DNA from: Beijerinckiaceae bacterium
GTDB lineage: Bacteria; Pseudomonadota; Alphaproteobacteria; Rhizobiales; Beijerinckiaceae
Direction: 5' to 3'
NCBI GenBank assembly: GCA_009773635.1
Contig: WSYC01000014.1
Location: 62,001-126,000 of the forward strand
Length of the DNA: 64,000 nucleotides
Positions 1,278 through 33,612 of the stretch are shown here, one piece after another. Below the pieces are notes generated by a model. That model was given only the letters and a program-made list of their open reading frames with translations. It searched no databases and was not told the DNA's origin. The position numbers and the translations under genes were made by a program. Position 1 is the first letter of the stretch; every line of letters starts with the position of its first letter.

Positions 1278-1308
1278 AATCGCGCCGCCCCATCTCCGGA
1301 TAACCCCC

Positions 1309-2082: not shown

Positions 2083-2098
2083 TCCTGGGGAGCACACC

Positions 2099-2881: not shown

Positions 2882-2930
2882 GCCTCGCGGCGCACCAATT
2901 TTCGGAACACGCATTCTATCCAATTGTCTT

Positions 2931-2977
2931 TCGCATTTTCTTCACGCGAACCGGTGGCCACTTCGCTTGAAAATGCT
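2931..2977. repeat. REP-like palindromic element, copy A
   Basis: A 47-base element with outer inverted ends GCATTTTC/GAAAATGC around a central CCGGT. It differs from copy B (45994-46040) at 2 positions and from copy C (54607-54658, opposite orientation) at a few more. It lies between the 3' ends of the convergent ABC ATPase and hutC genes. Similar elements are, to my knowledge, common between genes in Rhizobiales. Confidence 0.75.
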
Positions 2978-2982
2978 GCCGG

Positions 2983-3729
2983 CTAAACCCCGACGCTTCC
3001 CCCCGGCCGGAAATGGCTCGTGAGCTGATGCCGCTCGCCAGGGTAGGTGAGCCGCACCCAGGTGATCGTATTTTCGCCCTGCCATGTCCGCCGCTCGATG
3101 ACGAGGCACGCGGCCTTGCGGGCAATGCCCAGCTTCTCCGCAACCAGCGGGCCCGCAAGGTCCGCCTGAATGACATGCTCCGCATTCGTCCAGGGCACGA
3201 CGTTCAGGAGCCATGTGCCCGGCGGCGCCCCCGTGAACGGCTCACTCGCGGCGGAGGGCACCATCGCAAGATTCATGAGCCGCTCCTCGAAAACGAAGGG
3301 GCGCCCATTGGCAAAGTGCAGCACACTCATCGCCAGCACCTTGCCCTTGGCCGGAACCGCAAGGTGGAGCGCATCCTCCGCGCTCATCCGGCGCTCGGTG
3401 CGGGAGAGAATCTCGAAGCGATACGCGCGACCCGAACCGAGAATCTCGGCCTTGATATCCTGGATGGACAGGATCGTTTCCTGCGATTTCGGCATGGCGA
3501 CGAAGGAGCCGGACCGCCGCTTGCGCACCACCAGCCCGGCCTTCGCGAGCGTGGAAAGCGCCTTGTTCACCGTCATCCGCGAGCAGGCATATTGCGCCTG
3601 CAACTCGTGCTCGGATGGCACGCGCGACCCCGGCACCCAAGCGCCGCTCGCGATCTTCGCCTGAAGATCACGCTCGATTTCGAGGTAGCGCGGCAGGGGG
3701 AAGGCGGCGTCCAAAATTCGGGTCCTCAA
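2983..3729 (-). CDS. hutC: Histidine utilisation repressor HutC (GntR/HutC family)
   Basis: 248 residues. The N-terminal winged helix-turn-helix is clear (PLPRYLEIERDL, VPSEHELQAQY, SRMTVNKALSTLAKAGLV, RRSGSFVA), followed by a UTRA ligand domain ending ERRTWQGENTITWVRLTYPG. HutC represses hut genes until urocanate binds. It lies 6 bases after hutF, so the two are co-transcribed from the operator region at 5.17 kb, implying autoregulation. The start is a TTG at 3729. A second TTG at 3714 has a better-placed GAGGA and may be the true start. Confidence 0.93.
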   Translation of the reverse strand: MRTRILDAAFPLPRYLEIERDLQAKIASGAWVPGSRVPSEHELQAQYACSRMTVNKALSTLAKAGLVVRKRRSGSFVAMPKSQETILSIQDIKAEILGSGRAYRFEILSRTERRMSAEDALHLAVPAKGKVLAMSVLHFANGRPFVFEERLMNLAMVPSAASEPFTGAPPGTWLLNVVPWTNAEHVIQADLAGPLVAEKLGIARKAACLVIERRTWQGENTITWVRLTYPGERHQLTSHFRPGGSVGV

Positions 3730-3735
3730 TTCGGG

Positions 3736-5097: not shown

Positions 5098-5173
5098 TCA
5101 ATTTCCCGCCTTGGTTCGCGCAGCTGTAGCCGCCCTTGAAAATGCCTATGGACAATAGCGCAGTTCTGTCATT

Positions 5174-5185
5174 ATGTATAGACAA
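5174..5185 (-). promoter_or_regulatory. HutC-type operator between hutF and hutI
   Basis: Read on minus, TTGTCTATACAT matches the perfect palindrome at 216-227 (TTGTCTAGACAA) at 10 of 12 positions. It lies 37 bases before the hutI ATG and 77 bases before the hutF ATG, placed to control both divergent operons. Confidence 0.65.
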
Positions 5186-5210
5186 ATAAGGCTTGACCTT
5201 GGAGGCCAGC

Positions 5211-6419
5211 ATGCCCTTCGACCGCCTGTGGCGCAATGCCCGGATCGCGACCCTTGCGCCGGATCGGCCCGGGTTGGGCGTGATCGAGAACGGCGCCCTT
5301 GCCACCACGGGGGAACGGATCACCTTTGTCGGCCCGGAAACGGATCTGCCCTCGGACACGCGCGCCGCCGAGACGATCGACTGCGCGGGTCGCTGGATGA
5401 CACCCGGCCTCGTCGATTGCCACACGCACCTTGTTTTTGGCGGCAACCGCGCCCGCGAATTCGAGCAGCGCCTCGCCGGCGCGAGCTACGAAGAGATCGC
5501 GCGCGCTGGCGGCGGCATTCTCTCGACCGTGCGCGCGACGCGGGCGGCGAGTGAGGATGATCTCGTTCAGGCCGCGCTGCCGCGGCTTGATCATCTGATC
5601 GCCGAGGGTGTGACGACCGTTGAGATCAAGTCCGGTTACGGGCTCGATCAGGAGAGCGAAGCCCGCATGTTGCGCGCCGCGCGGCGCCTTGGTTCCGAGC
5701 GGAAGGTTGGTGTGACCACCACCTTTCTCGGCGCGCATGCGTTGCCGCCGGAGGCGGGCGGTGACAAGGATGCATACATCGACCACCTGTGCACCAAGGT
5801 CCTGCCCGCGCTTGCCGCCGAAGGCCTTGCCGATGCCGTCGACGCCTTCTGCGAGGGTATCGCCTTTTCCATCGATCAGACCGCGCGCGTGTTCAATGCC
5901 GCCAGGGCGCTTGGCCTTCCGGTCAAGCTCCACGCCGACCAGCTCTCGAACCTCGGTGGCGCAGCGCTGGCCGCGCGCTATCGTGCACTCTCGGCCGACC
6001 ATCTCGAATACACGGATGAAGCCGGCGCCCGCGCCATGGCTGAGGCGGGAACGGTTGCCGTGCTGCTGCCGGGGGCGTTCTACTTCATCCGCGAAACGCG
6101 GAAGCCGCCGGTCGATCTTTTCCGGGCCGCCGGAACACACATGGCGCTGGCAACCGATTGCAACCCCGGCTCCTCACCGCTCACCTCGCTGTTGCTGACG
6201 ATGAATATGGGCGCGACATTGTTCCGCCTGACGGTTGAGGAATGCATCGCCGGCGTCACGCGCGAGGCGGCGCGGGCGCTTGGGCGGCTCGATGACATCG
6301 GCACGCTCGAGGTCGGGAAATCCTGCGATCTCGCGATCTGGTCGATCGAGGACTTGGCTGAACTCGTCTACCGCATCGGCTTCAACCCGCTGCATACCCG
6401 CATCTGGAGGGGACAATGA
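5211..6419 (+). CDS. hutI: Imidazolonepropionase HutI
   Basis: 402 residues from the ATG at 5211, which follows GGAGG. A TTG 18 bases upstream is in frame but has no ribosome site. It hydrolyses imidazolone-5-propionate to formiminoglutamate in the cytoplasm. Amidohydrolase motifs: [17 protein letters not shown] (HxH metal ligands plus the substrate-binding GGNR typical of HutI), [20 protein letters not shown] and [10 protein letters not shown]. It is first in the plus-strand hutIHGU operon and overlaps hutH by 4 bases. Confidence 0.96.
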
Positions 6420-7960
6420 CCGACATCACCCTGCGCCCCGGCAACGTCCCGCTCAGCGATTGGCGCGCGATCTACGAGGGCGCAAGCCTCCGGCTGGATC
6501 CCGCCTGCTATCCGGCCATCGAGCGCTCCGCCGCAACGGTGCACGCGATCCTCGCGAAGGGCGAGCCGGTCTATGGCATCAATACCGGCTTCGGAAAGCT
6601 GGCAATGGTCAAGATCGAAACCGATGACCTCGCCACGCTCCAGCGCAACATCGTGCTGAGCCATGCCGCCGGCACGGGCGCACCGATGCCGGTGGCGGTG
6701 ACCCGGCTGATGATGGCGTTGAAGCTTGCGAGCCTCGCGCAAGGTGCCTCGGGGTGCAGCCTCGCGACCATCACCCTGCTGGAAGCCCTCTTGCGCAAGG
6801 GCCTGACTCCGGTCGTTCCCTGCAAGGGCTCGGTCGGCGCATCCGGTGATCTCGCCCCGCTCGCGCACATGAGTGCCGCGATGATCGGCGTCGGCACCTT
6901 TCTCGTCGACGGACGCGCGGTTGAAGCCAGCCGTGCGCTGGCGGATGCCGGGCTCTCCCCCCTCGTGCTCGGCCCGAAGGAAGGATTGGCGCTGCTCAAC
7001 GGCACGCAGTTTTCGACCGCCTACGCGCTGGCCGGGCTCTTCGAGGCCGAAACGCTGCTGCAATCCGCGCTGATCACCGGTGCCTTGTCCACCGATGCCG
7101 CACGCGGCTCCGATACGCCCTTCGATCCGCGCATCCACGCCCTGCGCCGTCACAAGGGTCAGATCGAGGTGGCGAGTTGCCTGCGCGGCCTGATGACAGG
7201 TTCGGCAATCCGCGCCTCGCATCTCGTGGGCGACGAGCGCGTTCAGGACCCCTATTGCCTGCGCTGCCAGCCGCAGGTGATGGGCGCGGCGCTCGATCTT
7301 CTGCGCCAGGCCGCAACAACGCTCGGCACCGAGGCGAACGGCGTTTCGGACAATCCGCTGATCTTTGTCGAGACTGGCGAAGCCCTTTCGGGCGGTAATT
7401 TCCACGCCGAGCCTGTGGCTTTCGCGGCGGATATGATTGCGCTTGCGATCTGCGAGATCGGCTCGATCGCCGAACGCCGCATCGCGATGCTGGTCGATCC
7501 AGCGCTCTCCGGCATGCCGGCATTCCTGACGCCGAAGCCGGGGCTGAATTCCGGGTTCATGATCCCGCAGGTCACGGCGGCCGCGCTCGTCTCGGAGAAC
7601 AAGCAGCGCGCCTACCCCGCCTCGGTTGATTCCATCCCGACCTCCGCCAATCAGGAGGATCACGTCTCGATGGCCGCACATGGCGCGCGCCGCCTCCTCG
7701 AAATGGCCGAAAACGCACGCGCCGTCATTGGCATCGAACTGCTTGCCGCCGCGCAAGGCTGTGATTTTCACCATCCTCTGGCATCAAGCGCGCCGCTGGA
7801 GGCTGTCCGCATCCTGCTGCGCAGCCGCGTCAGCCGGCTTGATAACGACCGCCATTTTCATCCGGACATGGAAGCGGCCAATACCCTCGTCGCCGAACGC
7901 CTGTTGGTGAGAGCCGTCGGCATTGACCGACTGCCCGCTGTAACCGGAGACATCGCATGA
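6416..7960 (+). CDS. hutH: Histidine ammonia-lyase HutH
   Basis: 514 residues. It removes ammonia from L-histidine to give urocanate, the first step and the source of the HutC inducer. The Ala-Ser-Gly triad that cyclises to the MIO group is at residues 142-144 ([14 protein letters not shown]). The active-site tyrosine segment is [10 protein letters not shown], and [15 protein letters not shown] and [10 protein letters not shown] are present. Length is normal for bacterial HutH. The start overlaps hutI (ATGA) and follows GGAGGGG. Confidence 0.97.
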
Positions 7961-8790
7961 CAGACACGACCCGCGACTGGCTGACGGTGCGGCGCGGCAA
8001 TGCCCCGCTGGTCATCAGCCTGCCCCATACCGGCACCATAATCCCCGATGCCTATGCGACCGATCTGGTCTCGCCCTGGCTGGCGAGGAAGGATGCCGAC
8101 TGGTGGATCGAAACGCTCTACGATTTCGCCGCCGGGCTTGATACCACCATCGTCCGCACCGGAATTTCGCGCACGGTGATCGATGTCAACCGCGATCCCT
8201 CCGGCATGTCGCTCTACCCCGGGCAGGCAACAACCGAACTTTGCCCGACAACAACCTTCGACGGGCAACCACTTTATCGAGCCGGCGCACTCTTTTCACC
8301 CCAAGAAATAGACAAGCGCTATCGCGCCTATTTCGCGCCCTACCATGCGGCGCTGAAAGCCGAGCTCAACCGCCTGAGGACAGATCACCGCGCTGTCGTT
8401 CTCTATGACTGCCATTCGATCCGCTCGACTATTCCCAGGTTGTTCGAGGGCGAGCTGCCGAATTTCAATCTCGGCACGAATTCTGGCGCTTCCTGCGCGG
8501 AAGCGCTCACACGGGGTGTCGAGGCCATCTGCGATCGCACGGGGTTCAGCCGCGTCACCAACGGCCGCTTCAAGGGCGGCTATATCACGCGCAGCCTTGG
8601 TGCACCCGAGCGCGGCATCCACGCGCTCCAGATGGAGCTGGCCTGCCGGGGCTATATGCGTGAGCCGGCTGCGATGCCGGATGAATCGAACTGGCCAACG
8701 CCCTATGATCCCGATTTCGCCGCCCCGATGCGGGCTGCGCTGGTGGATATTCTCACCTTCTGCCTCGTCTTTGCCCGTTCCCACGCCTGA
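7957..8790 (+). CDS. hutG: N-formylglutamate deformylase HutG
   Basis: 277 residues, N-formylglutamate amidohydrolase family. It hydrolyses N-formyl-L-glutamate to formate and glutamate, the last step after HutF. Features seen: SLPHTG near the start, the [13 protein letters not shown] segment, YDCHSIRS and [23 protein letters not shown]. This is the amidohydrolase type, not the arginase-like formiminoglutamase also called HutG, which agrees with the presence of hutF. The start overlaps the hutH stop by 4 bases. Confidence 0.94.
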
Positions 8791-8802
8791 CGGAGACACC
8801 CT

Positions 8803-10473
8803 ATGACACGACTGGACAACGCCCGCACCATTCGCGCTCCGCGCGGCAGCGACATCTCTGCCAAGAGCTGGCTCACCGAAGCGCCTTTGCGGATGCTGAT
8901 GAACAACCTCGACGCGGAAGTCGCGGAAAAGCCCGGCGAGCTCGTCGTCTATGGCGGCATCGGTCGCGCCGCCCGCGACTGGGAAAGCTTTGATCGTATT
9001 GTATCGACCCTGCGACGGCTTGAAGCCGACGAAACATTGCTTGTTCAATCGGGTAAACCGGTCGGTGTGTTCAAGACCCACCCCGATGCGCCGCGCGTGT
9101 TGATCGCGAATTCGAACCTGGTGCCGCATTGGGCCACCTGGGACCACTTCAACGAACTCGATAGGAAGGGTCTGATGATGTACGGCCAGATGACGGCCGG
9201 CTCATGGATCTACATCGGCTCCCAGGGCATCGTGCAGGGCACGTATGAAACCTTCGTGGAAATGGGTCGCCAGCATTACGGCGGCGACCTCTCCGGCCGC
9301 TGGATTCTCACCGCCGGCCTCGGGGGCATGGGCGGCGCGCAACCGCTGGCGGCAACCATGGCCGGCGCGTCCTGCCTCGCGGTGGAATGCCGGCCGTCCT
9401 CGATCGAGTTTCGCCTGCGCACCGGTTATGTCGATGTGCAGGCGAAAGACCTCGACGATGCCCTCGCCATCATCGAAAAATCCTGCCGCGAGAAAAAGGC
9501 GGTTTCGGTCGCCCTTCTGGGCAATGCCGCCGATGTTTTCCCCGAACTTGTCCGTCGCGGCGTGCGCCCGGATTGCGTCACCGACCAGACCTCTGCGCAT
9601 GATCCGCTGAACGGCTATCTGCCAAAGGGCTGGACGGTGGCGGAGTGGGAAGCCAAGCGAACCTCGGACCCGACGGGACTTGTGGCAGCAGCAAAGCACT
9701 CGATGGCGACGCATGTTCGCGCGATGCTTGATTTCCACAAGGCGGGAATTCCAACCGTCGATTACGGCAACAATATCCGCCAGATGGCGCTGGAGGACGG
9801 CGTAGCGAACGCCTTCGATTTCCCCGGTTTTGTGCCGGCTTACATTCGCCCGCTTTTTTGCCGGGGTATCGGTCCTTTCCGCTGGGCGGCACTCTCTGGT
9901 GACCCCGAGGACATCTACAAGACCGATGCGAAGGTTAAACAAATTTTGCCGGACAACAAACACCTTCATCGCTGGCTCGACATGGCGCGCGAACGCATCA
10001 AATTTCAGGGTCTTCCGGCGCGAATCTGCTGGGTCGGCCTTGGTGATCGCCATCGCCTCGGCCTTGCTTTCAACGAGATGGTGGCCTCGGGCGAGTTGAA
10101 AGCACCGATCGTTATCGGGCGAGATCATCTTGATTCCGGCTCGGTCGCCTCGCCCAACCGCGAGACGGAGGCGATGAAGGACGGCTCGGACGCCGTGTCC
10201 GATTGGCCGCTGCTCAACGCCCTTCTGAACTGCGCATCCGGTGCGACATGGGTGTCGCTGCATCATGGCGGCGGCGTCGGCATGGGCTTTTCGCAGCATT
10301 CGGGCATGGTGATCTGCGCCGATGGCACGGCGGACGCCGCGCGGCGAATCAGCCGCGTGCTCTGGAACGACCCGGCCACTGGCGTGATGCGCCACGCGGA
10401 TGCGGGCTATGACATCGCCATCGATTGCGCGCGCGCGAACGGTCTTGATCTGCCGAGCCTCCAGGCGCGGTGA
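8803..10473 (+). CDS. hutU: Urocanate hydratase HutU
   Basis: 556 residues, full length for the family. It converts urocanate to imidazolone propionate using tightly bound NAD+ as an electrophile. Diagnostic segments: [40 protein letters not shown], the dinucleotide loop [35 protein letters not shown] and the [17 protein letters not shown] region. It is the last gene of hutIHGU, 12 bases after hutG. A hairpin terminator follows. Confidence 0.97.
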
Positions 10474-10500
10474 GGCCTGAACAAACACTCTGATAACAAA

Positions 10501-10524
10501 AAAGGCGCATGAAAATGCGCCTTT
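10501..10524. terminator. Bidirectional terminator between hutU and the helicase gene
   Basis: AAAGGCGCAT-GAAA-ATGCGCCTTT is a perfect 10-bp stem with a GAAA tetraloop. Read on minus it ends in a run of six T residues, making a strong terminator for the helicase. Read on plus the T-rich tail is looser (CCTGATTTTATT). It sits between two convergent genes and probably serves both. Confidence 0.85.
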
Positions 10525-10549
10525 CCTGATTTTATTAGCCGAACCTCGT

Positions 10550-11869
10550 TCAGGCTGCAAACTGCCCCGATGAGCGCCCCTGCCCCCCACCGCCGGAGCG
10601 GCGGCGACGATTGCGCTGGGGCTGGCCATTGCGCTCGCCTTGGCGTTCCCCGCTGCGGCCCGGCGCGTGATGGCCCCGGTTGCCGTCGTTGCGGTTCTGC
10701 TCGGAAGCCGGCAGGCGCGGCGGCGGCGCAGTCATCACGAAGCCTTCCGGCAGCGCGAGAACCGGCACGGGAAGCCGCGTCAGCTTTTCGATATCGCGCA
10801 GGAACGGCCGCTCCTCGTTCGAACAGAACGACATCGCGATGCCGGAGGCACCCGCGCGGGCGGTGCGCCCGATGCGGTGGACATAGGCTTCCGACACATT
10901 CGGCAGCTCGAAGTTGATGACATGCGTCACGCCGTCGACATCAATGCCGCGCGCGGCGATATCGGTCGCGACAAGCACGCGGCACGCGCCTTCCTTGAAC
11001 GCGGCCAGCGCCTTCTCACGCTGGGCCTGGCTTTTGTTGCCATGGATTGCCATCGCCTGGATACGGGCGTTGACGAGGTGCTTCACCACCTTGTCCGCGC
11101 CATGCTTGGTGCGGGTAAAGACGAGCACGCGCTCGATCGCAGGATCGAGCAGCACCGCATGCAGGAGGTTCTGCTTGGCCGAGACCGGCACGAACATCAC
11201 GCCCTGCGTCACCCGCTCGGCGGTCGTGGCAACGGGGGTCACCGAAACCTTCACGGGGTCCTTGAGGAACTGATCGGCGAGGCCCGAAATTGTCTTCGGC
11301 ATGGTTGCCGAGAAGAAGAGGCTCTGGCGCTGCTTCGGCAGCATCGGAATGATGCGCTTCAGCGGCACGATGAAGCCGAGATCGAGCATCTGGTCGGCCT
11401 CGTCGAGGACAAGGATTTCGAGGTCTTTCAGCGTCAGCGCCTTCTGGTCGATGAGGTCGAGCAGGCGGCCCGGCGTCGCGACGAGAATGTCGGCACCGGT
11501 CGAAAGCCGCTTGATCTGCTTGCCGACCGGCACACCGCCGAACACGACATCGATCGAGAGGTGCATGAACTTGCCATAGGCGCGGAAGCTGTCCGCGATC
11601 TGGCTGGCGAGTTCGCGGGTCGGGCTGAGAATCAACGCCCGGCAGGAGCGCGGCTTGCACGTCACGCCGGATTTGCCGAGCGTATGCAGGATCGGCAGCG
11701 CGAAGGCTGCGGTCTTGCCGGTGCCGGTCTGGGCGATGCCGAGCAGATCCTTGCCGGCGAGCGCATGGGGAATGGCCTGCGACTGGATCGGCGTCGGCTT
11801 GGTGTAGCCCTCGGCGGCGAGTGCTTTTTGCAACGGCGCGAGCAGGGCGAAATCGGAAAACGATGTCAA
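10550..11869 (-). CDS. DEAD-box RNA helicase, RhlE-like
   Basis: About 439 residues from a TTG at 11869 that begins (M)TSFSDFALLAPLQKAL, the usual start of RhlE-type proteins. Upstream in-frame codons back to 12034 have no family resemblance. Motifs in order: Q-motif (KPTPIQSQAIP), I (AQTGTGKTAAF), Ia (PTRELASQ), II (LDEADQMLDLGF), III (SAT), IV (VLVFTRTKHGAD), V (ATDIAARGIDV) and VI (HRIGRTARAG). The tail is rich in Arg, Gly, Asn and Gln, as in cold-associated RNA helicases. Neighbouring S21 and cold-shock genes fit an RNA-metabolism role. Confidence 0.92.
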   Translation of the reverse strand: MTSFSDFALLAPLQKALAAEGYTKPTPIQSQAIPHALAGKDLLGIAQTGTGKTAAFALPILHTLGKSGVTCKPRSCRALILSPTRELASQIADSFRAYGKFMHLSIDVVFGGVPVGKQIKRLSTGADILVATPGRLLDLIDQKALTLKDLEILVLDEADQMLDLGFIVPLKRIIPMLPKQRQSLFFSATMPKTISGLADQFLKDPVKVSVTPVATTAERVTQGVMFVPVSAKQNLLHAVLLDPAIERVLVFTRTKHGADKVVKHLVNARIQAMAIHGNKSQAQREKALAAFKEGACRVLVATDIAARGIDVDGVTHVINFELPNVSEAYVHRIGRTARAGASGIAMSFCSNEERPFLRDIEKLTRLPVPVLALPEGFVMTAPPPRLPASEQNRNDGNRGHHAPGRSGERQGERNGQPQRNRRRRSGGGGQGRSSGQFAA

Positions 11870-12211
11870 AGGATAATCTTTCTGGAACGCTGTCGCGGGA
11901 ACTTTGCCCGACAGACAGCAACGGCCCCGACGCCCGATCGAGCGTTGAGGACCAAAGGACGACCCGCGTGAATGGGGGAAGTCAGGGCAAGGGGAACGAA
12001 TGAAGGGGGAAGCCGGCACCAAGTTCTGGCGCAATCACGCTGCTTCACACACGCGTCATCTTTCGTTTGATCGCGGCTTCCGGTGCAGGACCCGAAGGCC
12101 TTTCTGCAGAAAGCCGCTCAAAGGCGACGCTGTCGTTCTCGGGGTGCAATGCGCTTGTTGCATTGCAATGTCAAGCGGCACGCGATGGTGCCGCCCGAGG
12201 TATCGTCAGAA
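11870..12211. other. Intergenic region upstream of the helicase gene
   Basis: With the adjacent hairpin this leaves about 370 bases without a supported gene. It should hold the helicase promoter on minus, but I could not pick out convincing hexamers. It contains the 14-base palindrome CTTTCTGCAGAAAG at 12100-12113 and a weak inverted repeat TGCAATG...CATTGCA at 12145-12167. Open frames here look like non-coding high-GC frames. Confidence 0.5.
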
Positions 12212-12231
12212 CCGGGCACAGCTGTGCCCGG
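12212..12231 (-). terminator. 20-base perfect palindrome after rpsU
   Basis: CCGGGCACAG followed by its exact reverse complement, 12 bases after the rpsU stop on minus. It can fold into a very stable hairpin, but the loop would have to open part of the centre and no clear U-run follows on minus. It is probably the 3' end or decay barrier of the rpsU transcript. A protein-binding role is possible. Confidence 0.5.
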
Positions 12232-12243
12232 CAAAAATCGTTT

Positions 12244-12513
12244 TCAGCGGGTGCCGGTCATGCCCGGGCGCGGGGGAACGCCATCGCGCGGCTTGGGCTT
12301 CGGCATCGGCAGCAGGCCTTCGCGCTGCATCTTCTTGCGCTGGAGCTTGCGGGCGCGGCGAACGGCTTCGCCCTTCTCGCGGTTCTTCTTCTCGGACGGC
12401 TTTTCATACGCCTTCCGCTGACGCATCTCGCGGAACACGCCCTCGCGCTGCATCTTTTTCTTCAGCACGCGAAGCGCCTGCTCCACATTGTTGTCACGAA
12501 CCAGAACCTGCAA
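12244..12513 (-). CDS. rpsU: 30S ribosomal protein S21
   Basis: 89 residues. The S21 core is clear: [20 protein letters not shown], then [20 protein letters not shown] and a long Arg/Lys helix ([16 protein letters not shown]). The C-terminal extension ([16 protein letters not shown]...) is longer than in E. coli and common in alphaproteobacteria. The start is a TTG at 12511-12513 with GGGGTGACC before it; there is no in-frame ATG that keeps the conserved N-terminus. It lies downstream of the cold-shock gene on minus. Confidence 0.93.
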
Positions 12514-25713: not shown

Positions 25714-27207
25714 TCACCGGCGCCACAATGCGGGCCCGAGCGTATGCACGGACTGTCCGGCCGCATCCACCGCGACCGTCACCGGCATGTCCTCGACGAC
25801 GAACTCGTGGATCGCCTCCATGCCGAGATCGGCAAAGGCCAGCACCTTCGCGGATTTGATCGCTTTGGCGACGAGATAGGCCGCGCCTCCCACCGCGATC
25901 AGGGAGGCGGCCTTGTGCCGCTTGATGGCGTCAATCGCCTCCGGCCCGCGCTCGGCCTTGCCGATCATCACCAGCAATCCGGTCTTGGCCAGAAGCTCAT
26001 CGACGAAGCGATCCATGCGCGTGGCCGTCGTCGGCCCCGCCGGCCCGACAGCCTCGCCCGCCACCGCGTCCACCGGACCGACATAGTAGATCGCACGGTC
26101 CCTCAGATCGACAGGAAGCGCCTTGCCCGCCTTCAGCATCGCCGACATCCGCGCGTGGGCTGCATCGCGCCCGGTCAGCATACGGCCGGAGAGCAGCAGC
26201 GTTTCGCCGGCTTTCCATGTTGCGACCTCCTGACGCGTGAGGTGATCAAGATCGACCTTGCGCACTGCACCGGCAGAGGTGAGCTGAATATCGTCCGGCC
26301 ACGCTGACAACGGCGGCGGTGTAAACACGGCGGGCCCCGAACCATCCAGCACGAAATGAACATGCCGGTCCGCTGCGCATTGCGGCACCAGCGCCACAGG
26401 CTTGGACGCAGCATGTGTCGGATAGGTCGCGATCTTGACGTCGAGCACGGTTGTCAACCCGCCGAGTCCCTGCGCGCCGATGCCGAGAGCGTTGATCTTC
26501 TGATAAAGCTCGATCCGCATCTCCTCGGCTTTCGAGGCAGGGCCGCGCATCAGCAATCCCGGCATGTCGATGGGGTCGAGCAGCGACATCTTGGCGAGCA
26601 GCATCGCCTTTTCCGGCGAGCCGCCGACACCGAGCCCGATCAGCCCCGGCGGACACCAGCCGGCACCGAGCTTCTCGACCGTGCGGAGAACCCAGTCCGT
26701 GACATCATCAGAGGGTTCGAGCGCGGCGAATTTCGCCTTGTTTTCGGACCCCCCGCCCTTCGCGGCGACATGCACATCGATCCTGTCCCCGGCGACCAGT
26801 TCGACGTGCAGCATCGCCGGGGTGTTGTCGCCGGTGTTCTTCCGTGCGAACAGCGGATCGGAGACCACCGAGGCCCGAAGTGGATTGGCTTCGCGTTTCC
26901 AGGCGATACGCACAGCCTCATCGACCAACGCTTGAAGGTCGCGGCTTGTGGCGATGCGTGCACCTACCCCGACCTTCATGAACACCTGCGCGGTGCCGGT
27001 ATCCTGGCACATCGGCCGCCGCCCCAGCGCCGCCATGCGCGAGTTCACGAGAATCTGACCGATCGCGCCCTTCGCGGCAGGGCTTTCCTCGCGGGCATAA
27101 GCAGCGCTCAAATTCTCGATGTAATCCGCCGGGTGATAGCAGGCGATGAACTGCAGCGCGTCCGCAAGGCTCGAGACAAGGTCATCTTCGGTGATCGTCG
27201 CTGGCAT
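25714..27207 (-). CDS. Fumarate hydratase class I (iron-sulfur)
   Basis: 497 residues, FumA/FumB type with the alpha and beta domains in one chain. Candidate [4Fe-4S] cysteines are C67 ([10 protein letters not shown]), C185 ([14 protein letters not shown]) and C277 (VPQCAADRH). The beta domain has [21 protein letters not shown] and [12 protein letters not shown]. It interconverts fumarate and malate in the cytoplasm; some relatives act on mesaconate or tartrate. Proximity to a dicarboxylate-type TRAP and CoA cluster is suggestive. It is convergent with dctM and divergent from the iorA gene. Confidence 0.93.
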
Positions 27208-27345
27208 GTTGCAGTCCCCGGTTCTCGACCTTGCAAGACTGCAAGACGTCGCGACGTTCTTGTGCGTGACAAGCCCGGAAAACAGAATAGCATCCTTTCA
27301 AAAGCGCGGTCACGCGCCCTTTCATGGCATCCCCGGGAGGATCGT

Positions 27346-27795
27346 ATGGCCAAGCTGACCGTCAACGGAAAAACCATCGACGTCGATGCTGCACCCGATA
27401 CGCCCCTGCTTTGGGCAATCCGCGAGCAGATCGGCCTCACCGGAACGAAGTATGGCTGCGGAGTCGGGCAATGCGGTTCCTGCACGGTGCATATCGACGG
27501 CGAAGCCGTGCGCTCCTGCTCGATCACGGTTGGCTCTTTGAAGGCAGACCAGAAGATCGTGACGATCGAGGGGCTGTCCCCGACCCATTCGCACCCGATC
27601 CAGAAAGCCTGGCTCGAGCTGGAGGTGCCGCAGTGCGGCTATTGCCAGTCCGGCATGATTATGGCCGCCGCTGCACTGCTCGCAAAGAAGCCGAAGCCAA
27701 CCGACGCGGATATCGACGAAGCCATGACGAACATCTGCCGCTGCGGCACCTACAACCGTGTGCGGGCGGGCATCAAGCTCGCCGCGAACGCGTAA
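27346..27795 (+). CDS. (2Fe-2S) subunit of a molybdenum hydroxylase, IorA-like
   Basis: 149 residues from the ATG at 27346 (GGGAGG site). Plant-type ferredoxin cluster: C38, C43, C46, C58 ([14 protein letters not shown] ... RSC). Second cluster: C97, C100, C131, C133 ([10 protein letters not shown] ... [12 protein letters not shown]). It passes electrons from the molybdopterin subunit encoded next. There is no signal peptide, so export would be as a complex with the Tat-tagged large subunit. There is no FAD subunit gene nearby, as in isoquinoline 1-oxidoreductase systems, where a cytochrome is the acceptor. Confidence 0.93.
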
Positions 27796-27807
27796 GGGAG
27801 AGAGATC

Positions 27808-29982
27808 ATGACGCACGCTCTCGACGTTTCGCGCCGCACGTTCTTGAAGTCCTCCGCCGTTGCTGCTGGCGGTTTCACGCTCGGCTTCTCTGTTCCCTTC
27901 GGCGAGGCCGCTGCACAAGGGGTACTCCCGCCCGAGGTCAACGCCTGGGTGGTGGTAAAGCCGGACGACACCGTCATCGTCCGCATCGCCCGTTCCGAGA
28001 TGGGTCAGGGCACGCTCACCGGTCTGGCCCAGCTCGTCGCCGAGGAACTGGAGGCCGATTGGTCGAAGGTCACCTGGGAATACCCCACACCGGGCCAGAA
28101 CGTCGCCCGCAACCGCGTCTGGAAGAATTTCTCGACCGGCGGCTCGCGCGGCATCCGCGAGAGCCATCAGTATGTCCGCGAGGGCGGTGCCGCCGCCCGG
28201 ATGATGCTGGTGCAGGCCGCAGCGAATGAATGGGGCGTGCCGGCGGCGGACTGCAAGGCCGCCAGAAGCACCATCACCCACACCGCGTCGGGCCGCTCGA
28301 CGACTTACGGCAAGGTCGCGGCGGCAGCCGCCAAGCTTGAGCCCCCCAAAGAGGTCAAGCTGAAGGACGCCAAGGATTGGGCCATCGCCGGCAAGCCATT
28401 GAAGCGGCTCGATACCGTCGACAAGCTCTCCGGCAAGCAGGTCTACGGCGCGGACCTCAAACTGCCGGGCATGCTCAACGCCGCGATCAAGGATTGCCCG
28501 GTGTTCGGTGGTAAGGTCGCGAGCTTCGACGCCGCGAAAATCGAGAAGATGCCCGGCGTCAGGAAGGTCGTGAAAGTCGGCGAGAGCGCACTCGCCGTCG
28601 TCGCTGACACCTGGTGGCAGGCGAAAACCGCGCTCGATGCGCTCCCCATCGTCTGGGATGAGGGCCCGCATGCCAAGGTCTCCTCGGAGACCATCGCCGC
28701 CATGCTCAAAGAGGGGCTCGATGCCGAGCAGGCCTATATCGGCAACAAGGCCGGGGACGCCAAGGCCGCCATCGCCAGCGCGGCGAAGAAGGTCGAGGCG
28801 ACCTATTCCTACCCCTACCAGAACCACGCCTGCATGGAGCCGATGAACGCCACCGCGCTCTGGACGGCGGAGAAATGCGAGGTCTGGTGCCCGACGCAGA
28901 ACGGAGAGGCGGCCTTCGCGGCAACCGTGGAAGCCTCCGGCCACCCCGCGCCGAAGTGCGAGGTCTACAAGCTTCACCTTGGCGGCGGCTTCGGTCGGCG
29001 CGGCATGACTGACTACGTCCGCCAGGCCGTCGCGATCGCCAAGCAGATGCCCGGCACGCCGGTCAAGCTGCTCTGGAGCCGCGAGGAGGATATGCTCCAC
29101 GGGCGCTATCACCCGATCACCATGGCAAAGATGACCGGCGCGCTCGATGCGCAAGGTAACCTGGTCGGGCTCCACATGCGGATCTCCGGCCAGTCGATCC
29201 TCGCAAGCGTCAACCCGCAGGCGCTGCAGCAGGGCCGCGACCCCGTGACCTTCCAGGGGCTCAACCCCTCCGGCCCGGAGGCGAGCTTCGGTTACACGAT
29301 CCCCAATCTGCTGATCGACCACGCGATGCGCAACCCGCATGTGCCGGCCGGCTTCTGGCGCGGCGTGAATCTCAACCACAATGCGATTTACGTCGAGTGT
29401 TTCATGGATGAACTGGCACAGGCCGCCGGGGTCGACCCGCTGGAATTCCGCCGCCGTCTGATGAAGAGCCATCCCAAGCACCTTGCGGTGCTCGAAGCCG
29501 CCGCGAAGGGCATCGGCTGGGGCACGCCCGCGCCATCAGGCATCCATCGCGGGCTGTGCCAGACGATGGGGTTCGGCTCCTATGTTGCCGCCGGCGCGGA
29601 AGTGTCGGTGGATGCGAAGGGCGCGATCAAGATCCACCGCATCGTCGCGGCCACCAACCCCGGCCATGTCGTCAACCCGGATCAGGTGGCGGCACAGGTC
29701 GAGGGCTCGTTCGTCTACGGCCTCTCGGCGATGCTGTATCAGGAATGCACCGTGAAGAACGGCCGGATCGTCGAGGAAAACTTCGACACCTACCCGCCGC
29801 TGCGGATGGACGAAATGCCGAAGGTCGAAAGCATCCTGATGCCCTCGGGCGATTTCTGGGGCGGGGGGGGCGAGCCCACCATCGCGGTTGCGGCCCCCGC
29901 CGTGCTCAACGCCATCTTCGCGGCGACGGGCAAGCGCGTGCGCTCACTGCCGCTCAAGAACGCGGACCTGCGCCGGGCCTGA
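27808..29982 (+). CDS. Molybdopterin-binding subunit of aldehyde/xanthine oxidase-type hydroxylase, IorB-like
   Basis: 724 residues. The N-terminal Tat signal is SRRTFLKSSAVAAGGFTLGF followed by EAAAQ, so it acts in the periplasm. Moco segments: GQGTLTGLAQLVAEELEADW, YQNHACMEPMNATALW, LGGGFGRRG and the C-terminal GGGGEPTIAVAAPAV with E689, the usual catalytic glutamate. Swapped IorB-type domain order fits. The substrate is unknown: family members hydroxylate N-heterocycles or oxidise aldehydes. Its stop overlaps the soxX start, tying it to the sox genes. A run of 8 G bases just before the E689 codon is a possible slippage site. Confidence 0.92.
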   Translation: MTHALDVSRRTFLKSSAVAAGGFTLGFSVPFGEAAAQGVLPPEVNAWVVVKPDDTVIVRIARSEMGQGTLTGLAQLVAEELEADWSKVTWEYPTPGQNVARNRVWKNFSTGGSRGIRESHQYVREGGAAARMMLVQAAANEWGVPAADCKAARSTITHTASGRSTTYGKVAAAAAKLEPPKEVKLKDAKDWAIAGKPLKRLDTVDKLSGKQVYGADLKLPGMLNAAIKDCPVFGGKVASFDAAKIEKMPGVRKVVKVGESALAVVADTWWQAKTALDALPIVWDEGPHAKVSSETIAAMLKEGLDAEQAYIGNKAGDAKAAIASAAKKVEATYSYPYQNHACMEPMNATALWTAEKCEVWCPTQNGEAAFAATVEASGHPAPKCEVYKLHLGGGFGRRGMTDYVRQAVAIAKQMPGTPVKLLWSREEDMLHGRYHPITMAKMTGALDAQGNLVGLHMRISGQSILASVNPQALQQGRDPVTFQGLNPSGPEASFGYTIPNLLIDHAMRNPHVPAGFWRGVNLNHNAIYVECFMDELAQAAGVDPLEFRRRLMKSHPKHLAVLEAAAKGIGWGTPAPSGIHRGLCQTMGFGSYVAAGAEVSVDAKGAIKIHRIVAATNPGHVVNPDQVAAQVEGSFVYGLSAMLYQECTVKNGRIVEENFDTYPPLRMDEMPKVESILMPSGDFWGGGGEPTIAVAAPAVLNAIFAATGKRVRSLPLKNADLRRA

Positions 29983-30464
29983 TGCGGCGCATCGCCCCGC
30001 TCCGACGGATGCTTTCGGCTTTCGCCGGGCTGATGATGACGTCCATCGGCTTGGGCGCTGCTGGCGCTCTGGCACAGGATCTGCCCGTTGTGCCCTATCG
30101 GATTGAAAGCGGCGGCATTTCCGCCCCTCTCGGCGGCAGGCAGGGCGATGCCGGGCGTGGGCGAAAACTGGTGACGGACCGGCGCAAGGGGCTATGCCTC
30201 CTCTGCCATTCCGGCCCGTTCCCCGAAGAGCGATTTCAGGGCGACCTTGCTCCTTCTCTTGCGGGCATTGCGAGCCGGCTCACTGCTGAAAAGATCAGGT
30301 TGCGGATCGTGGACAGCACCGCAATCAACCCCGCGAGTCTCATGCCGCCCTATCATCGGATCGAGGGGTTGGTGGAGGTGGGCGCGGCCTGGCGCGGCAA
30401 ACCGATCCTCACGGCAGGGGAAATCGAGGATGTCGTGGCTTTCCTCGGAACTTTGCGGGACTAG
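29982..30464 (+). CDS. soxX: Sulfur-oxidation c-type cytochrome SoxX
   Basis: 160 residues, starting in the overlapping TGATG with iorB. Signal peptide, then a single haem site C72-C75-H76 (GLCLLCHSGPFPEERFQG), the SoxX-specific LAPSLAGIASR, and the probable distal methionine M121 in SLMPPYHRIEGL. The end, WRGKPILTAGEIEDVVAFLGTL, is typical. SoxX pairs with SoxA to attach sulfur substrates oxidatively to SoxYZ in the periplasm. Here it follows a molybdenum hydroxylase, so it may also take electrons from that enzyme, which is inference. Confidence 0.93.
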   Translation: MRRIAPLRRMLSAFAGLMMTSIGLGAAGALAQDLPVVPYRIESGGISAPLGGRQGDAGRGRKLVTDRRKGLCLLCHSGPFPEERFQGDLAPSLAGIASRLTAEKIRLRIVDSTAINPASLMPPYHRIEGLVEVGAAWRGKPILTAGEIEDVVAFLGTLRD

Positions 30465-30503
30465 ATCAGGGACGACAGGACAACCATTCCCGGAGCAACG
30501 GAC

Positions 30504-30962
30504 ATGCCTCCTTCAACAAAGCCAACAAGGCGAAAGGTGCTGGTTCAGGGCACGGCGGCACTGGCGTTTCTGACCGCCAGACCTGCTTTCGCGGAACCGG
30601 AGGATATGGAAAAGGCGATCCTTGATTTCACCGGCGGTGTGGCCGTTACGCCCGGAAAGGTGAAGATCGAGGTCGCGCCGCTCGTCGAGAACGGCAATTC
30701 GGTCACCCTCGGCGTGCGTGTCGAAAGCCCGATGACGACAGCTTACCACGTGAAAACCATCGCGCTGTTCAACGAGAAAAACCCGCAACCGCAGATCGCC
30801 CGGTTTCATCTCGGTCCGCGCGCAGGGCGAGCGGCGGTCGAAACCCGCATCCGCCTTGCGACCACGCAGCACCTCACCGCTATCGCGCGGCTGAGTGATG
30901 GCAGTCTGTGGTCGGATACCGTTGAAGTCATCGTCACCATCGCGGCCTGCACGGAGGATTGA
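30504..30962 (+). CDS. soxY: Sulfur carrier SoxY with noncanonical C-terminus
   Basis: 152 residues. Tat signal (TRRKVLVQGTAALAFLTARP...AFA), then the SoxY fold: PLVENGNSVTLGVRVESPM, TAYHVKTIALFNEKNPQP, TRIRLATTQHLTAIARLSDG and VEVIVTIAACTED. Classical SoxY ends in GGCGG, the swinging arm whose cysteine carries the substrate. Here the cysteine (C149) is kept, but the flanking glycines are replaced and three residues (TED) follow it. Other frames do not restore the motif. The carrier may hold a different substrate or meet different partners. It is 3 bases before soxZ. Confidence 0.88.
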   Translation: MPPSTKPTRRKVLVQGTAALAFLTARPAFAEPEDMEKAILDFTGGVAVTPGKVKIEVAPLVENGNSVTLGVRVESPMTTAYHVKTIALFNEKNPQPQIARFHLGPRAGRAAVETRIRLATTQHLTAIARLSDGSLWSDTVEVIVTIAACTED

Positions 30963-30965
30963 GCC

Positions 30966-31289
30966 ATGGCAAGCGCGCTGATCGATGCCCCGAAAACCGC
31001 GAAGCGCGGCGAGATCATCACCTTGCGGGCGCTGGTCTCGCACCAGATGGAAACCGGATATCGGCGCGAAATTTCCGGCGCGGTCATTCCGCGGCTGATC
31101 ATCCATACTTTCACCTGCCACTATGATGGCGAGGAGATTTTCCGCGCCGATCTTTTCCCGGCCATGGCGGCCAATCCGCTGATCGCCTTCACCACCGTTG
31201 CCACGCGGAGTGAGCCGCTGGTGTTTCGCTGGCTCGACGACGCTGGCGTCGCGATCACCGAGACCGTTCAGCTGGTGGTGACGGCATGA
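30966..31289 (+). CDS. soxZ: Sulfur carrier partner SoxZ
   Basis: 107 residues, normal length. Marker segments: AKRGEIITLRALVSHQMETGYRR cut into KRGEIITLRALVSHQME and TGYRREISG, then FTCHYDGEEIFRADLFPAMAANPLIAFTTVA and FRWLDDAG. No signal peptide, as expected: SoxZ is exported with SoxY. It forms the SoxYZ heterodimer. It overlaps soxA by 4 bases. Confidence 0.95.
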   Translation: MASALIDAPKTAKRGEIITLRALVSHQMETGYRREISGAVIPRLIIHTFTCHYDGEEIFRADLFPAMAANPLIAFTTVATRSEPLVFRWLDDAGVAITETVQLVVTA

Positions 31290-32128
31290 TGTTTCCGGAG
31301 AGACATTCTCGGAACAATATCGAGCCTAGTTCAGATTTTTATTTGCCGGCTTTCTTTATTGCTGTCCTTTTTGCGATCAACCTCTCTCCGGTTCCTTTTA
31401 TGGCTGTTCGCGCTGCTGAAATCCCGCTCGCCCAACGCCAGTCCGGCTTCGAACTCATGCAGGCGGAAACGCAAGCCATGCAGCGCAACGACCTCTCCAA
31501 CCCCGCGATGCTCTGGGTGCGCGAGGGCGAAAAGCTCTGGGACGAAAAACCCGGCGAGAATGGACAATCCTGCGTCGCATGCCACGGTGTAGTCACCGGC
31601 ATGGCGGGTGTTGCAGCCAGCTATCCGACGCTCGATACTGCGTCCGGCAGGCCGATCGATCTGACAGGACGTATCCAGCAATGCCGCACGGATCGCCAGC
31701 GCGCGAGTGCATGGCCGCGCGAGAGCCGGGCACTGCTGGCGATGGCAAGCCTTATCGGCCTGCAATCGCGCGGCATGCCGATCATGCCTGCACCGGACCC
31801 GATATCGAAAGCCGGCGCGGCGCGCGGCAAGGCACTGTTCAACCAGCGCGTCGGCCAGCTCAATCTTTCCTGCGCCCAGTGTCATGACGACAATTGGGGC
31901 CGCAAGCTGGGCAGCGCGACAATCCCGCAAGGGCACCCGACCGGCTACCCGATCTACCGGCTCGAATGGCAGGGCGTCGGCTCATTGCAACGCCGGCTAC
32001 GGAACTGCCTCGCCGGCGTTCGCGCCGAGGCGTTTCCCTTCGGCGCGGACGCGTTGATCGATCTCGAACTTTTCCTCATGGAGCGCGCGGCGGGCATGAC
32101 GGTCGAGACGCCCGCCGTGCGACCCTGA
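31286..32128 (+). CDS. soxA: Dihaem cytochrome SoxA
   Basis: 280 residues with an N-terminal hydrophobic export segment (about 19-43). Haem sites: C96-C99-H100 (SCVACHG) and C196-C199-H200 (SCAQCHDDNWG). The cysteine that becomes the persulfide ligand in SoxA is C241 in RRLRNCLAGVRAEAFPFG. SoxA with SoxX joins reduced sulfur to SoxYZ. All catalytic features are present, so this half of the Sox system looks active although soxB and soxCD are not in the window. It is last in the iorAB-soxXYZA operon. Confidence 0.94.
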   Translation: MMFPERHSRNNIEPSSDFYLPAFFIAVLFAINLSPVPFMAVRAAEIPLAQRQSGFELMQAETQAMQRNDLSNPAMLWVREGEKLWDEKPGENGQSCVACHGVVTGMAGVAASYPTLDTASGRPIDLTGRIQQCRTDRQRASAWPRESRALLAMASLIGLQSRGMPIMPAPDPISKAGAARGKALFNQRVGQLNLSCAQCHDDNWGRKLGSATIPQGHPTGYPIYRLEWQGVGSLQRRLRNCLAGVRAEAFPFGADALIDLELFLMERAAGMTVETPAVRP

Positions 32129-32175
32129 CCATCAGGCCCGCCCCTAACCATCAGGCCCGCCCCTAACCATCAGGC
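32129..32175. repeat. 19-base tandem duplication between soxA and the aldehyde dehydrogenase gene
   Basis: CCATCAGGCCCGCCCCTAA occurs at 32129-32147 and 32148-32166, and its first 9 bases recur at 32167-32175. It fills the whole 41-base gap between two convergent stop codons and contributes the dehydrogenase stop. It probably arose by duplication of that gene's 3' end. Confidence 0.9.
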
Positions 32176-33612
32176 CAGCGTGTAGCTGGTCTTCACACTC
32201 GTGTAGAATTCGCGGGCGTAGCTGCCCTGCTCGCGCGGGCCGTAGCTCGATCCCTTCCGGCCGCCGAACGGCACATGGTAATCCACCCCCGCCGTCGCGA
32301 GATTGACCATCACCATCCCGGCTTCCGCATTGCGCTTGAAATGCGTCGCATGCTTGAGGCTGGTCGTGCAGATGCCGGAGGAAAGACCGAATTCGGTATC
32401 ATTCGCCACCGCCAGCGCCTCGTCATAGTTCGCCACGCGAATGACCGCCGCCACCGGCCCGAAAATCTCCTCGCGTGCGATGCGCATCGAGTTCGCAACC
32501 CCGGTGAACAGCGCCGGCTGGAGATAGAATCCGGGGTTCTCGCGGTTGAGCCGCTCGCCGCCCCAGTGCAGCTTCGCGCCTTCGTCGCGGCCGATGGCGA
32601 TGTATTTTTCATCCGTTGCAAGCTGGTTCTCATCGACAACGGGGCCGATATGCGTGCCCGCTTTCAAGGCATCGTCGATCACAAGCCCTTGAAGTCGTTC
32701 GGTGAGCGCGGCGACAAAAGCATCATGGATGCCTGCCGTGACGATCAACCGCGAGGAAGCCGTGCAGCGCTGGCCGGTGGAGAAGAACGCGCCGTTCGCC
32801 GCGCATTCCACCGCGATCTTGAGATCGGCATCATCGAGAACCACCAGCGGGTTCTTGCCGCCCATCTCCAGCTGGACCTTCTTCATCGGCGAGGCTGCGA
32901 CACAGTTCGCCGCGATGCGTCGTCCGGTCTGAACCGATCCGGTAAAGGAAATCCCGGCGACATCCGGGTTGTCGATGATCGCCTGGCCGACAACCGACCC
33001 CTTGCCCATGACGATGTTGAGCACACCCTTCGGCAAGCCGGCGCGGTTGAGGATATCGACGAGCGCCCAAGCCGAATGCGGCACGATTTCTGCCGGCTTG
33101 ATGACGACGCAATTGCCGTAGGCCAGTGCCGGCGCGATCTTCCATGCGGGGATCGCGATCGGAAAATTCCATGGCGTGATCATGCCGATGACACCGAGCG
33201 CCTCCCGCGTCATCTCGACACCGACGCCGGGCCTTACCGATGGCATCGTTTCGCCACCAAAGCGAAGACATTCGCCGGCAAAGAATGCGAGAATCTGCCC
33301 GGCCCGCGCGGCTTCGCCGATGCCCTCCGGCAAGGTCTTGCCTTCCTCGCGGGAGAGGATGCGGCCGAGTTCCTCACGTCGCGCGAGAACCTCGTCGGAG
33401 GCTTTCTTGAGGATGTCATACCGCTCCTGCGGCGTCGTGCGCGACCAGGCCGGGAAGGCTGCCTTTGCTGCAGCGACGGCGCGATCGGCATCCGCCTTCG
33501 TGCCGGAGGCGAATTCACCGATCACATCGCCGGTGTTCGAGGGATTGATGTTGCGGGAGACATTTGCCGCTGCCACGGTTTCGCCACCGATGAAATTCTG
33601 GAATACCGACAT
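32170..33612 (-). CDS. Aldehyde dehydrogenase, NAD(P)+-dependent
   Basis: 480 residues. Motifs: PWNFPIAIPAWKIAPALAYG, FTGSVQTGRRI (cofactor), the general base in QLEMGGKNPLVV, the catalytic cysteine in FFSTGQRCTASSRLI, and EEIFGPVAAVI. Overall pattern and the start (FQNFIGGETV) fit the 2,5-dioxovalerate/alpha-ketoglutarate semialdehyde and succinic semialdehyde group. It is last in a minus-strand run with a PdxA-like dehydrogenase, deacetylase and peptide-type transporter, so it may oxidise an amino-aldehyde or sugar-derived semialdehyde. Confidence 0.92.
   Translation of the reverse strand: MSVFQNFIGGETVAAANVSRNINPSNTGDVIGEFASGTKADADRAVAAAKAAFPAWSRTTPQERYDILKKASDEVLARREELGRILSREEGKTLPEGIGEAARAGQILAFFAGECLRFGGETMPSVRPGVGVEMTREALGVIGMITPWNFPIAIPAWKIAPALAYGNCVVIKPAEIVPHSAWALVDILNRAGLPKGVLNIVMGKGSVVGQAIIDNPDVAGISFTGSVQTGRRIAANCVAASPMKKVQLEMGGKNPLVVLDDADLKIAVECAANGAFFSTGQRCTASSRLIVTAGIHDAFVAALTERLQGLVIDDALKAGTHIGPVVDENQLATDEKYIAIGRDEGAKLHWGGERLNRENPGFYLQPALFTGVANSMRIAREEIFGPVAAVIRVANYDEALAVANDTEFGLSSGICTTSLKHATHFKRNAEAGMVMVNLATAGVDYHVPFGGRKGSSYGPREQGSYAREFYTSVKTSYTLA

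Follow-up and report, generated by a model that had tools for sequence, protein, structure and literature searches.

At positions 27346-32128 of a 64,000-nucleotide stretch of DNA from a Beijerinckiaceae bacterium (contig WSYC01000014.1; the whole stretch is hereafter the window), six plus-strand open reading frames (ORFs) run head to tail as iorA-iorB-soxX-soxY-soxZ-soxA. This arrangement, in which a molybdenum hydroxylase is joined to Sox proteins, is a conserved operon-like block of known parts that is spread over many alpha- and betaproteobacteria. Two of its features were overlooked in the preliminary description of the window: judged by its sequence, SoxY has an arm of a distinct type, and genes of flavocytochrome c sulfide dehydrogenase (FCSD; SoxEF/FccAB-like) are often part of the block. 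SoxB and SoxC are not needed by the module in many hosts. As to its function, we propose with some reserve, and with slightly less than even confidence, that specialised SoxXYZA, IorAB and often FCSD make up an oxidation module of the periplasm that is self-contained and separate from canonical thiosulfate oxidation.

Conservation of the block and its SoxY type

Conservation was followed through 17 genomes of the genus (the window's own included), a class draw of 385 genomes and a phylum scan of 398 genomes. Within the genus, a SoxY of NCBIfam family TIGR04487 scores above cut-off in 12 of the 17 genomes, and the gene order from iorA to soxA is kept at all 12 loci, L034 lying on a contig that begins inside iorB and leaves iorA out of view. 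The flanks vary. Only one of the 11 other genus loci (L033) has most of the window's neighbouring genes, and five (L036, L039, L040, L042 and L043) have flanks in common with one another. A chance neighbourhood is ruled out because the block holds as its flanks change. A functional tie to the aldehyde dehydrogenase, the TRAP transporter or the fumarate hydratase of the window was likewise rejected, since the flanking genes change between loci.

Selection by SoxY over genus, class scan, plasmids and phylum scan gave 53 loci, 48 with the arm (A/G/P/S)AC (AC-arm loci) and five with GGCG. An iorB gene is present at 42 of the 48; of the other six, contig ends truncate three (L034, L050 and L079), one belongs to a genome in which the block is split across two contigs (G130; L093 and L219), the iorB of L099 is in two pieces, and the contig of L103 extends only about 2 kb upstream of soxX. 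None of the 48 has an adjoining soxB. At the GGCG loci iorB is found in none of the five and soxB adjoins in four. Selection by IorB only, confined to the best 80 loci in named genomes (three of them repeating genus loci), recovered an AC-arm SoxY at 70, including L198, which is without soxX and soxA; among the remaining ten, one is truncated within soxY, seven stop short of soxY and two (Reyranella L179 and Inquilinus L186) are truly without it. Picked by SoxY or IorB, the distinct AC-arm loci number 119. The core genes detected lie on one strand at 121 of 121 loci, two of which have a cut or doubtful SoxY. Hosts include Bradyrhizobium, Bosea, Microvirga, Methylobacterium, Mesorhizobium, Ancylobacter, Belnapia and Skermanella and, among betaproteobacteria, Massilia, Duganella and Roseateles; the block is also borne by three plasmids, of Neorhizobium galegae (iorB apparently broken), Methylobacterium and Roseomonas. 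The preliminary description had allowed for a rare neighbourhood, and the search for adjacent iorAB-like and soxXYZA genes across genomes showed one that is conserved in the genus and far beyond it rather than a stray one. Three closed genomes of 1.7-2.0 Mb from another class of the same phylum (G599, G549 and G762; L225-L227) have the six-gene block with FCSD not adjoining.

In the class draw, all 21 genomes with TIGR04487 above cut-off fall among the 31 that have an IorB of at least 64% identity (Fisher p 2e-27, uncorrected for relatedness). In six of the other ten an AC-arm SoxY is present but scores under the cut-off, and the full block occurs in G167 (L211); in G407 and G329 the IorB of at least 64% stands alone, the link to soxYZA being with a second IorB (51-53%). 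Across 105 alpha- and betaproteobacterial loci, IorB has a mean identity of 0.70 and the Sox proteins one of 0.52-0.54, and the distances of IorB and SoxY correlate at 0.80 (Mantel p 0.001, host relatedness still included). Apart from the block's eight families, the commonest genes at 42 clustered loci, named by eye, are those of ABC-transporter ATPases (17 loci; a large family), followed by short-chain dehydrogenases (11 loci, eight of them in the genus).

The IorAB proteins of the window have the marks of their family, a 2Fe-2S subunit with eight cysteines and a subunit that binds the molybdenum cofactor and has the GE motif. The eight-cysteine pattern recurs in 131 of 132 IorA ORFs scoring above 150 bits. 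Long IorB proteins of distinct loci keep WGGxGEP (113 of 113), EMGQG (111 of 113) and GGGFGRR (110 of 113), and the glutamate of WGGxGEP is presumably the catalytic residue, as in the xanthine-oxidase family. Thirty-nine IorB positions hardly vary among 111 block members and are seldom shared by 25 divergent relatives, one of which (L233) is itself sox-linked. By sequence (259 bits) and by fold (Foldseek E 1e-55), the solved structure closest to the window's IorB is 8gy3_C. For neither iorA nor iorB of the window did an NCBIfam equivalog reach its cut-off, and the block contains no multihaem subunit of the IorAB/aldehyde dehydrogenase type. The frame of iorB is apparently broken at two loci, L073 on the N. 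galegae plasmid pNgVX (3752-5927) and L099 in genome G051 (10267-12356).

The window's SoxY is a full member of TIGR04487, 'SoxY-related AACIE arm protein' (198.1 bits; cut-off 172), and remains below the cut-off of the true SoxY family TIGR04488 (97.5 bits; cut-off 125). TIGR04557 (cut-off 140) is reached neither by SoxY (53.2 bits) nor by SoxZ (37.1 bits). The arm ends in IAACTED where canonical SoxY ends in GGCGG, and the family pattern is (A/G/P/S)AC-x, mostly followed by E; counts over distinct loci are 40 for AACTE, 24 for AACIE, 15 for AACVE and 7 for SACID, plus rarer forms, with AACTED or AACTEE at all 12 genus loci. An AlphaFold model of the protein, whose C-terminal end is of low confidence, finds its best Foldseek match in Paracoccus SoxYZ (2ox5_Y; E 3e-10) and indicates that the SoxY fold is kept.

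The cytochromes SoxX and SoxA of the window score 72.9 bits against TIGR04485 (cut-off 61) and 209.8 bits against TIGR04484 (cut-off 110), and they have the haem sites and ligand cysteine of canonical SoxXA. Over distinct loci, CxxCH is present in 116 of 116 SoxX, two CxxCH motifs in 116 of 118 SoxA, and the ligand-cysteine pattern in 117 of 118 SoxA, the one miss being cut by a contig end; we assume that the conserved cysteine in RNCLAGVRAE is this ligand. In quick trees the module's SoxY (arm columns removed) and SoxX each split from their canonical counterparts on one branch, with supports of 88 and 92 that lie below the starred level. That each of the four Sox proteins parts cleanly from its canonical counterpart was rejected, since this holds for SoxY and SoxX only.

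Sulfide dehydrogenase, SoxB and SoxC in carrier genomes

An FCSD flavoprotein gene lies within 9 kb at 70 of the 119 AC-arm loci, often adjoining a small cytochrome c gene. It is placed between iorB and soxX or after soxA; in two Bosea and one relative it follows soxA on the opposite strand. In the class draw FCSD occurs in 29 of 31 carriers versus 51 of 354 other genomes (p 5e-20, uncorrected for relatedness), and it is present in 38 of a set of 39 carriers, the miss (G166) being a genome that is 74% complete. The Methylobacterium FCSD (L074) aligns over nearly its full length to FCSD flavoproteins of solved structure (5n1t, E 8e-129), and its two cysteine regions presumably hold the redox-active cysteines.

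The preliminary description presented the block as one without SoxB or SoxCD. For the locus this stands: family scans found neither soxB nor soxCD among the genes of the window's block, and SoxB lies beside none of the 119 distinct AC-arm loci. It does not stand for the genome, in which another contig carries a canonical cluster with soxB (G000:C5:160393-162078; 824 bits), soxC (G000:C5:159070-160329; 619 bits), a GGCGG soxY, soxZ, soxA, a weak soxX match and the FCSD genes. The concern that soxB might be found elsewhere in carriers is thus borne out for the window's genome, yet both SoxB and SoxC are absent genome-wide in 22 of the 39 carriers. Taken singly, SoxB is above cut-off in 16 and absent from 23, and the same numbers hold for SoxC. 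Seventeen of the 22 belong to the 31 genomes with a completeness of 90% or more and a contamination of 5% or less; G241 and G385 are single-contig genomes without SoxB and SoxC. In the genus, SoxB is above cut-off in the window's genome and in 10 of the 11 other carriers examined, and SoxC is found in all 12. The carrier search covered SoxB, SoxC and FCSD. Four soxYZ pairs with GGC arms and no adjoining soxB (L274, L276, L278 and L282) reside in carriers without SoxB above cut-off.

Layout of the window locus and divergent variants

ORF coordinates and family scans agree with the preliminary description that six genes lie head to tail with overlaps or short gaps (Table 1). The overlap that it reported between the iorB stop and the soxX start is a single base, soxX starting on the last base of the stop codon (TGATG); soxZ and soxA overlap by four bases. 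Its assignment of iorA as the 2Fe-2S and iorB as the molybdopterin subunit matches the Pfam domains, with the Tat signal of IorB (21.1 bits) slightly below the Pfam cut-off of 22.7. A single, weak sigma-70-like match lies at 27266-27293 in the region upstream of iorA; the promoter scan of 27150-32250 gave two matches against 0.7 expected, which is not evidence of function, and promoter and terminator scans of the block were near expectation. Among RNA features, the window yielded no Rfam match above the gathering score.

Table 1. Features of the iorAB-soxXYZA locus in the window
Feature	Position	Strand	Assignment and marks
intergenic, likely promoter region	27208..27345	.	separates the divergent fumarate hydratase gene (-) from iorA
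iorA	27346..27795	+	[2Fe-2S] subunit of a xanthine-oxidase-family molybdenum hydroxylase; Pfam Fer2 and Fer2_2
iorB	27808..29982	+	molybdopterin subunit; Tat-like leader; WGGxGEP motif; MoCoBD_1 and MoCoBD_2
soxX	29982..30464	+	monohaem cytochrome c; CLLCH; Met ligand region MPPY; TIGR04485
soxY, AACIE-arm type	30504..30962	+	C-terminus IAACTED with the cysteine kept; TIGR04487; SoxY fold (model)
soxZ	30966..31289	+	Pfam SoxZ, 80.4 bits; TIGR04490, 73.3 bits, slightly below the cut-off of 76
soxA	31286..32128	+	dihaem cytochrome c; presumed ligand cysteine in RNCLAGVRAE; TIGR04484

Sox genes also accompany more distant IorB proteins. At IorB identities of 50-53% (L214, L216 and L218) the hydroxylase genes adjoin soxY-soxZ-soxA, the arms being of the GAC form and soxX missing; at about 41% (L251 and L255) one or two iorAB pairs are followed by soxY, soxZ, a cytochrome gene, FCSD, soxX and soxA. 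The L251 arrangement (G402) spans 1161-9176, its SoxY arm being GACVE and then a tail, and G117 has two iorAB pairs (L255 and L233). Genomes G164 and G267 have soxYZ upstream of a distant iorAB (L256 and L257; IorB 39%), with arms ending in GACS and SGCI, and L280 (G130:C24:112000-128000) is a further divergent iorAB pair beside soxYZ with a GAC arm. On the IorB tree the sox label changes seven times, against 27 when shuffled, and distant sox-linked groups are present; because of these seven changes, IorAB and Sox genes were either joined long ago and separated on several occasions or brought together more than once. At L251 soxZ and the cytochrome gene are set apart by two extra ORFs, one of which, by eye, presumably resembles formylglycine-generating-type proteins. 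Genome G352 has three iorAB-type pairs in tandem (L253; G352:C61) and, near FCSD on another contig, SoxY and SoxZ fused into one protein whose arm is GGCGA (L254).

The closed genome G106 has iorAB-soxX-soxA with no soxYZ within the block (L212; G106:C1:2347000-2366000, block 7759-11913). In this one-contig genome no SoxY was found with TIGR04488 at E 0.01 or TIGR04487 at 1e-40, and the genome is the second FCSD miss among the 31 class-draw carriers; the frames of its iorAB and SoxXA are open and their motifs intact. Because SoxY and FCSD are missing together, this one genome suggests that IorAB and SoxXA form a pair and that FCSD acts on SoxY-bound sulfur.

Proposed function and relation to known systems

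A self-contained oxidation module is favoured by the co-occurrence of its genes, the altered arm, the intact motifs, the absence of an adjoining SoxB, the carriers without SoxB and SoxC, the tie to FCSD, the branches that set its SoxY and SoxX apart and the correlation of IorB and SoxY distances. We also count in its favour the very low expression on thiosulfate of a comparable block in Starkeya novella, as given in the accessible part of PMC3797975. In the cycle that we envisage, the cysteine in the AAC-x-E arm of SoxY would be loaded by SoxXA with a reduced sulfur compound, an organic thiol being the likeliest. IorAB could oxidise the carbon part of the carrier-bound compound, with water as the oxygen source as in its family, and would pass the electrons through its two [2Fe-2S] clusters to c-type cytochromes, either SoxX/SoxA or the small cytochrome. 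The carbon part would be released as an oxidised product and the sulfane sulfur would stay on SoxY, from which FCSD may oxidise or remove it. SoxB and SoxCD would be unneeded because no sulfonate would be formed. The chemical steps, the substrate class, the electron path and the order of the steps are what we infer. That there is a separate pathway of this kind, with an organic thiol held as a disulfide on the Sox carrier, its carbon oxidised by the molybdenum hydroxylase and the sulfur cleared by flavocytochrome c, is a speculation that we regard as doubtful.

Several observations weigh against the proposed module. FCSD is absent from the window's own block and is not near 49 of the 119 loci, and in Reyranella (L179) and Inquilinus (L186) the 8 kb downstream of this IorB contain no sox genes. 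The block is patchy, its SoxY type being above cut-off in 21 of the 385 genomes of the class draw and in 15 of the 398 of the phylum scan; the co-occurrence tests ignore the relatedness of genomes; and the module's SoxA and SoxZ are not cleanly one group, with two and three changes on their trees. Most reactions known for xanthine-oxidase-family enzymes take place at aldehyde or aromatic carbon rather than at carbon adjoining a disulfide. Since G106 keeps IorAB and SoxXA with neither SoxY nor FCSD found, these two may work without a carrier.

The main rival account, which we consider rather unlikely, takes IorAB for an ordinary periplasmic oxidoreductase of aldehydes or N-heterocycles, with SoxXA, alone or together with the small cytochrome, as the electron acceptor that replaces the multihaem subunit of related enzymes and with SoxYZ and FCSD as accessories in thiol or redox chemistry. 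It draws on the closest solved relative, the Gluconobacter membrane-bound aldehyde dehydrogenase 8gy3, which we take to be cytochrome-linked, and on the retention of iorAB-soxX-soxA in G106. Against this account stand the SoxA ligand cysteine, kept in 117 of 118 proteins and presumably of importance for conjugation rather than electron transfer, the conservation of the SoxY arm within the family, and SoxYZ being nearly always kept: at L214, L216 and L218 soxYZ and soxA occur without soxX, and at L198 soxYZ occurs without soxX and soxA. A role in maturation or repair, in which SoxYZ would carry sulfane sulfur that restores the sulfido ligand of the molybdenum enzyme and SoxXYZA and FCSD would serve this purpose, seems improbable. 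Xanthine-oxidase-family enzymes do need a sulfido ligand, which they can lose; known sulfuration, however, is cytoplasmic and precedes Tat export. The SoxYZ link is also seen with more distant IorB groups, but in 24 of 25 divergent IorAB loci no sox genes were found (for L224 on a contig of only 4 kb), L233 being the one that has them, and G106 keeps iorAB and SoxXA without SoxY. Also in line with repair is a fused SoxYZ-like protein that, in the available part of PMC12997753, consistently accompanies pyrroloquinoline quinone (PQQ) alcohol dehydrogenase systems.

We give still less credence to a second thiosulfate Sox isoenzyme set that would use SoxB and SoxCD in trans and have the molybdenum enzyme as an incidental neighbour. 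The distribution within the genus, with SoxB in all carriers examined except one and SoxC in all, would fit such a set; the 22 of 39 carriers without both proteins would not, nor would the linkage of iorAB at 42 of the 48 AC-arm loci selected through SoxY alone. As far as the accessible text of Masuda et al. 2017 goes (PMC5748708), only soxY1 of the two soxY genes of Bradyrhizobium diazoefficiens is essential for thiosulfate oxidation, soxY2 being probably of the AACIE type, and the S. novella block is barely expressed on thiosulfate (PMC3797975, accessible part). That the block is a functionless relic, a possibility raised by the describers of the S. novella cluster, we hold to be very improbable. 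It would accord with the SoxAX and SoxYZ proteins of that cluster being undetected and its mRNA very low under the tested conditions, according to the part of PMC3797975 at hand, and with the apparently broken iorB frames at L073 and L099. Against it stand IorB proteins that are on average about 70% identical over 105 loci of alpha- and betaproteobacteria, with motifs intact.

Genes for SoxXA and SoxYZ are commonly taken as a sign of thiosulfate oxidation. For many carriers of the block such readings may be wrong because many of them are without SoxB and SoxC. If an organic sulfur compound is indeed the substrate, the block would connect carbon and sulfur turnover in a new way; the module would then be a carrier-bound route joining carbon and sulfur oxidation across alpha- and betaproteobacteria, many of them without SoxB. 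The AC-arm family would be dropped by the filter of the 2024 SoxY phylogeny, which, in the accessible part of PMC11237559, removed sequences without the GGC motif.

The combination of genes, put forward in the preliminary description as one not known from any described system, is already in print for S. novella, in a paper that we attribute to Kappler and colleagues. There a second cluster, soxX2Y2Z2A2F2, accompanies, in one operon, a xanthine-oxidase-family molybdenum enzyme (Snov_1982-1975; Front Microbiol 2013;4:304; PMC3797975). In the accessible part of that paper the cluster is without SoxB and SoxCD, expression is very low on glucose, methanol and thiosulfate, its SoxAX and SoxYZ proteins are undetected, and the authors suggest that the cluster either has no significance for function or matters in other conditions. 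It is like the window's block in uniting SoxXYZA with xanthine-oxidase-family molybdenum genes in the absence of SoxB and SoxCD, and it differs in having SoxF-like flavocytochrome genes, which the window's block is without. The description covers one genome and, in the same part, contains no SoxY arm, spread or function proposal. One genome and a report without an assigned function were thus known before; new here are the spread, the SoxY arm of its own, the independence of SoxB and SoxC in many hosts and the tie to FCSD. A literature search with most subscription journals outside its reach found no paper on 'AACIE' together with SoxY. In the available text of other reports, Polynucleobacter has three sox gene clusters, one of four genes, with energy gain unconfirmed and some sox genes common to Bradyrhizobium (PMC3308952, 2012), and SoxYZ of SAR324 adjoins flavocytochrome c with no further sox genes (PMC4782131).

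TIGR04487 is an NCBIfam entry of type 'exception' with a name and no stated function, to which our analysis adds the tie to IorAB, SoxXA and FCSD. With canonical Sox systems the window's block has in common SoxXA and SoxYZ with their haem, ligand-cysteine and arm-cysteine features; it differs from them by the missing SoxB and SoxCD, the non-GGCGG arm and the added molybdenum hydroxylase. The carrier of PQQ alcohol dehydrogenase clusters, TIGR04557, likewise pairs a SoxYZ-like protein with a periplasmic dehydrogenase of organic compounds, but it is a fused SoxYZ, and the window's SoxY lies far below its cut-off. The Gluconobacter oxydans membrane-bound aldehyde dehydrogenase (8gy3), the best match by sequence and fold, and isoquinoline 1-oxidoreductase share with IorAB the two-gene 2Fe-2S and molybdenum architecture. 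Unlike these enzymes, the IorAB of the window has SoxXYZA as partners; the 39 nearly invariant IorB positions of the block are rare in the 25 relatives, and identity to 8gy3 is 26% in the fold alignment.

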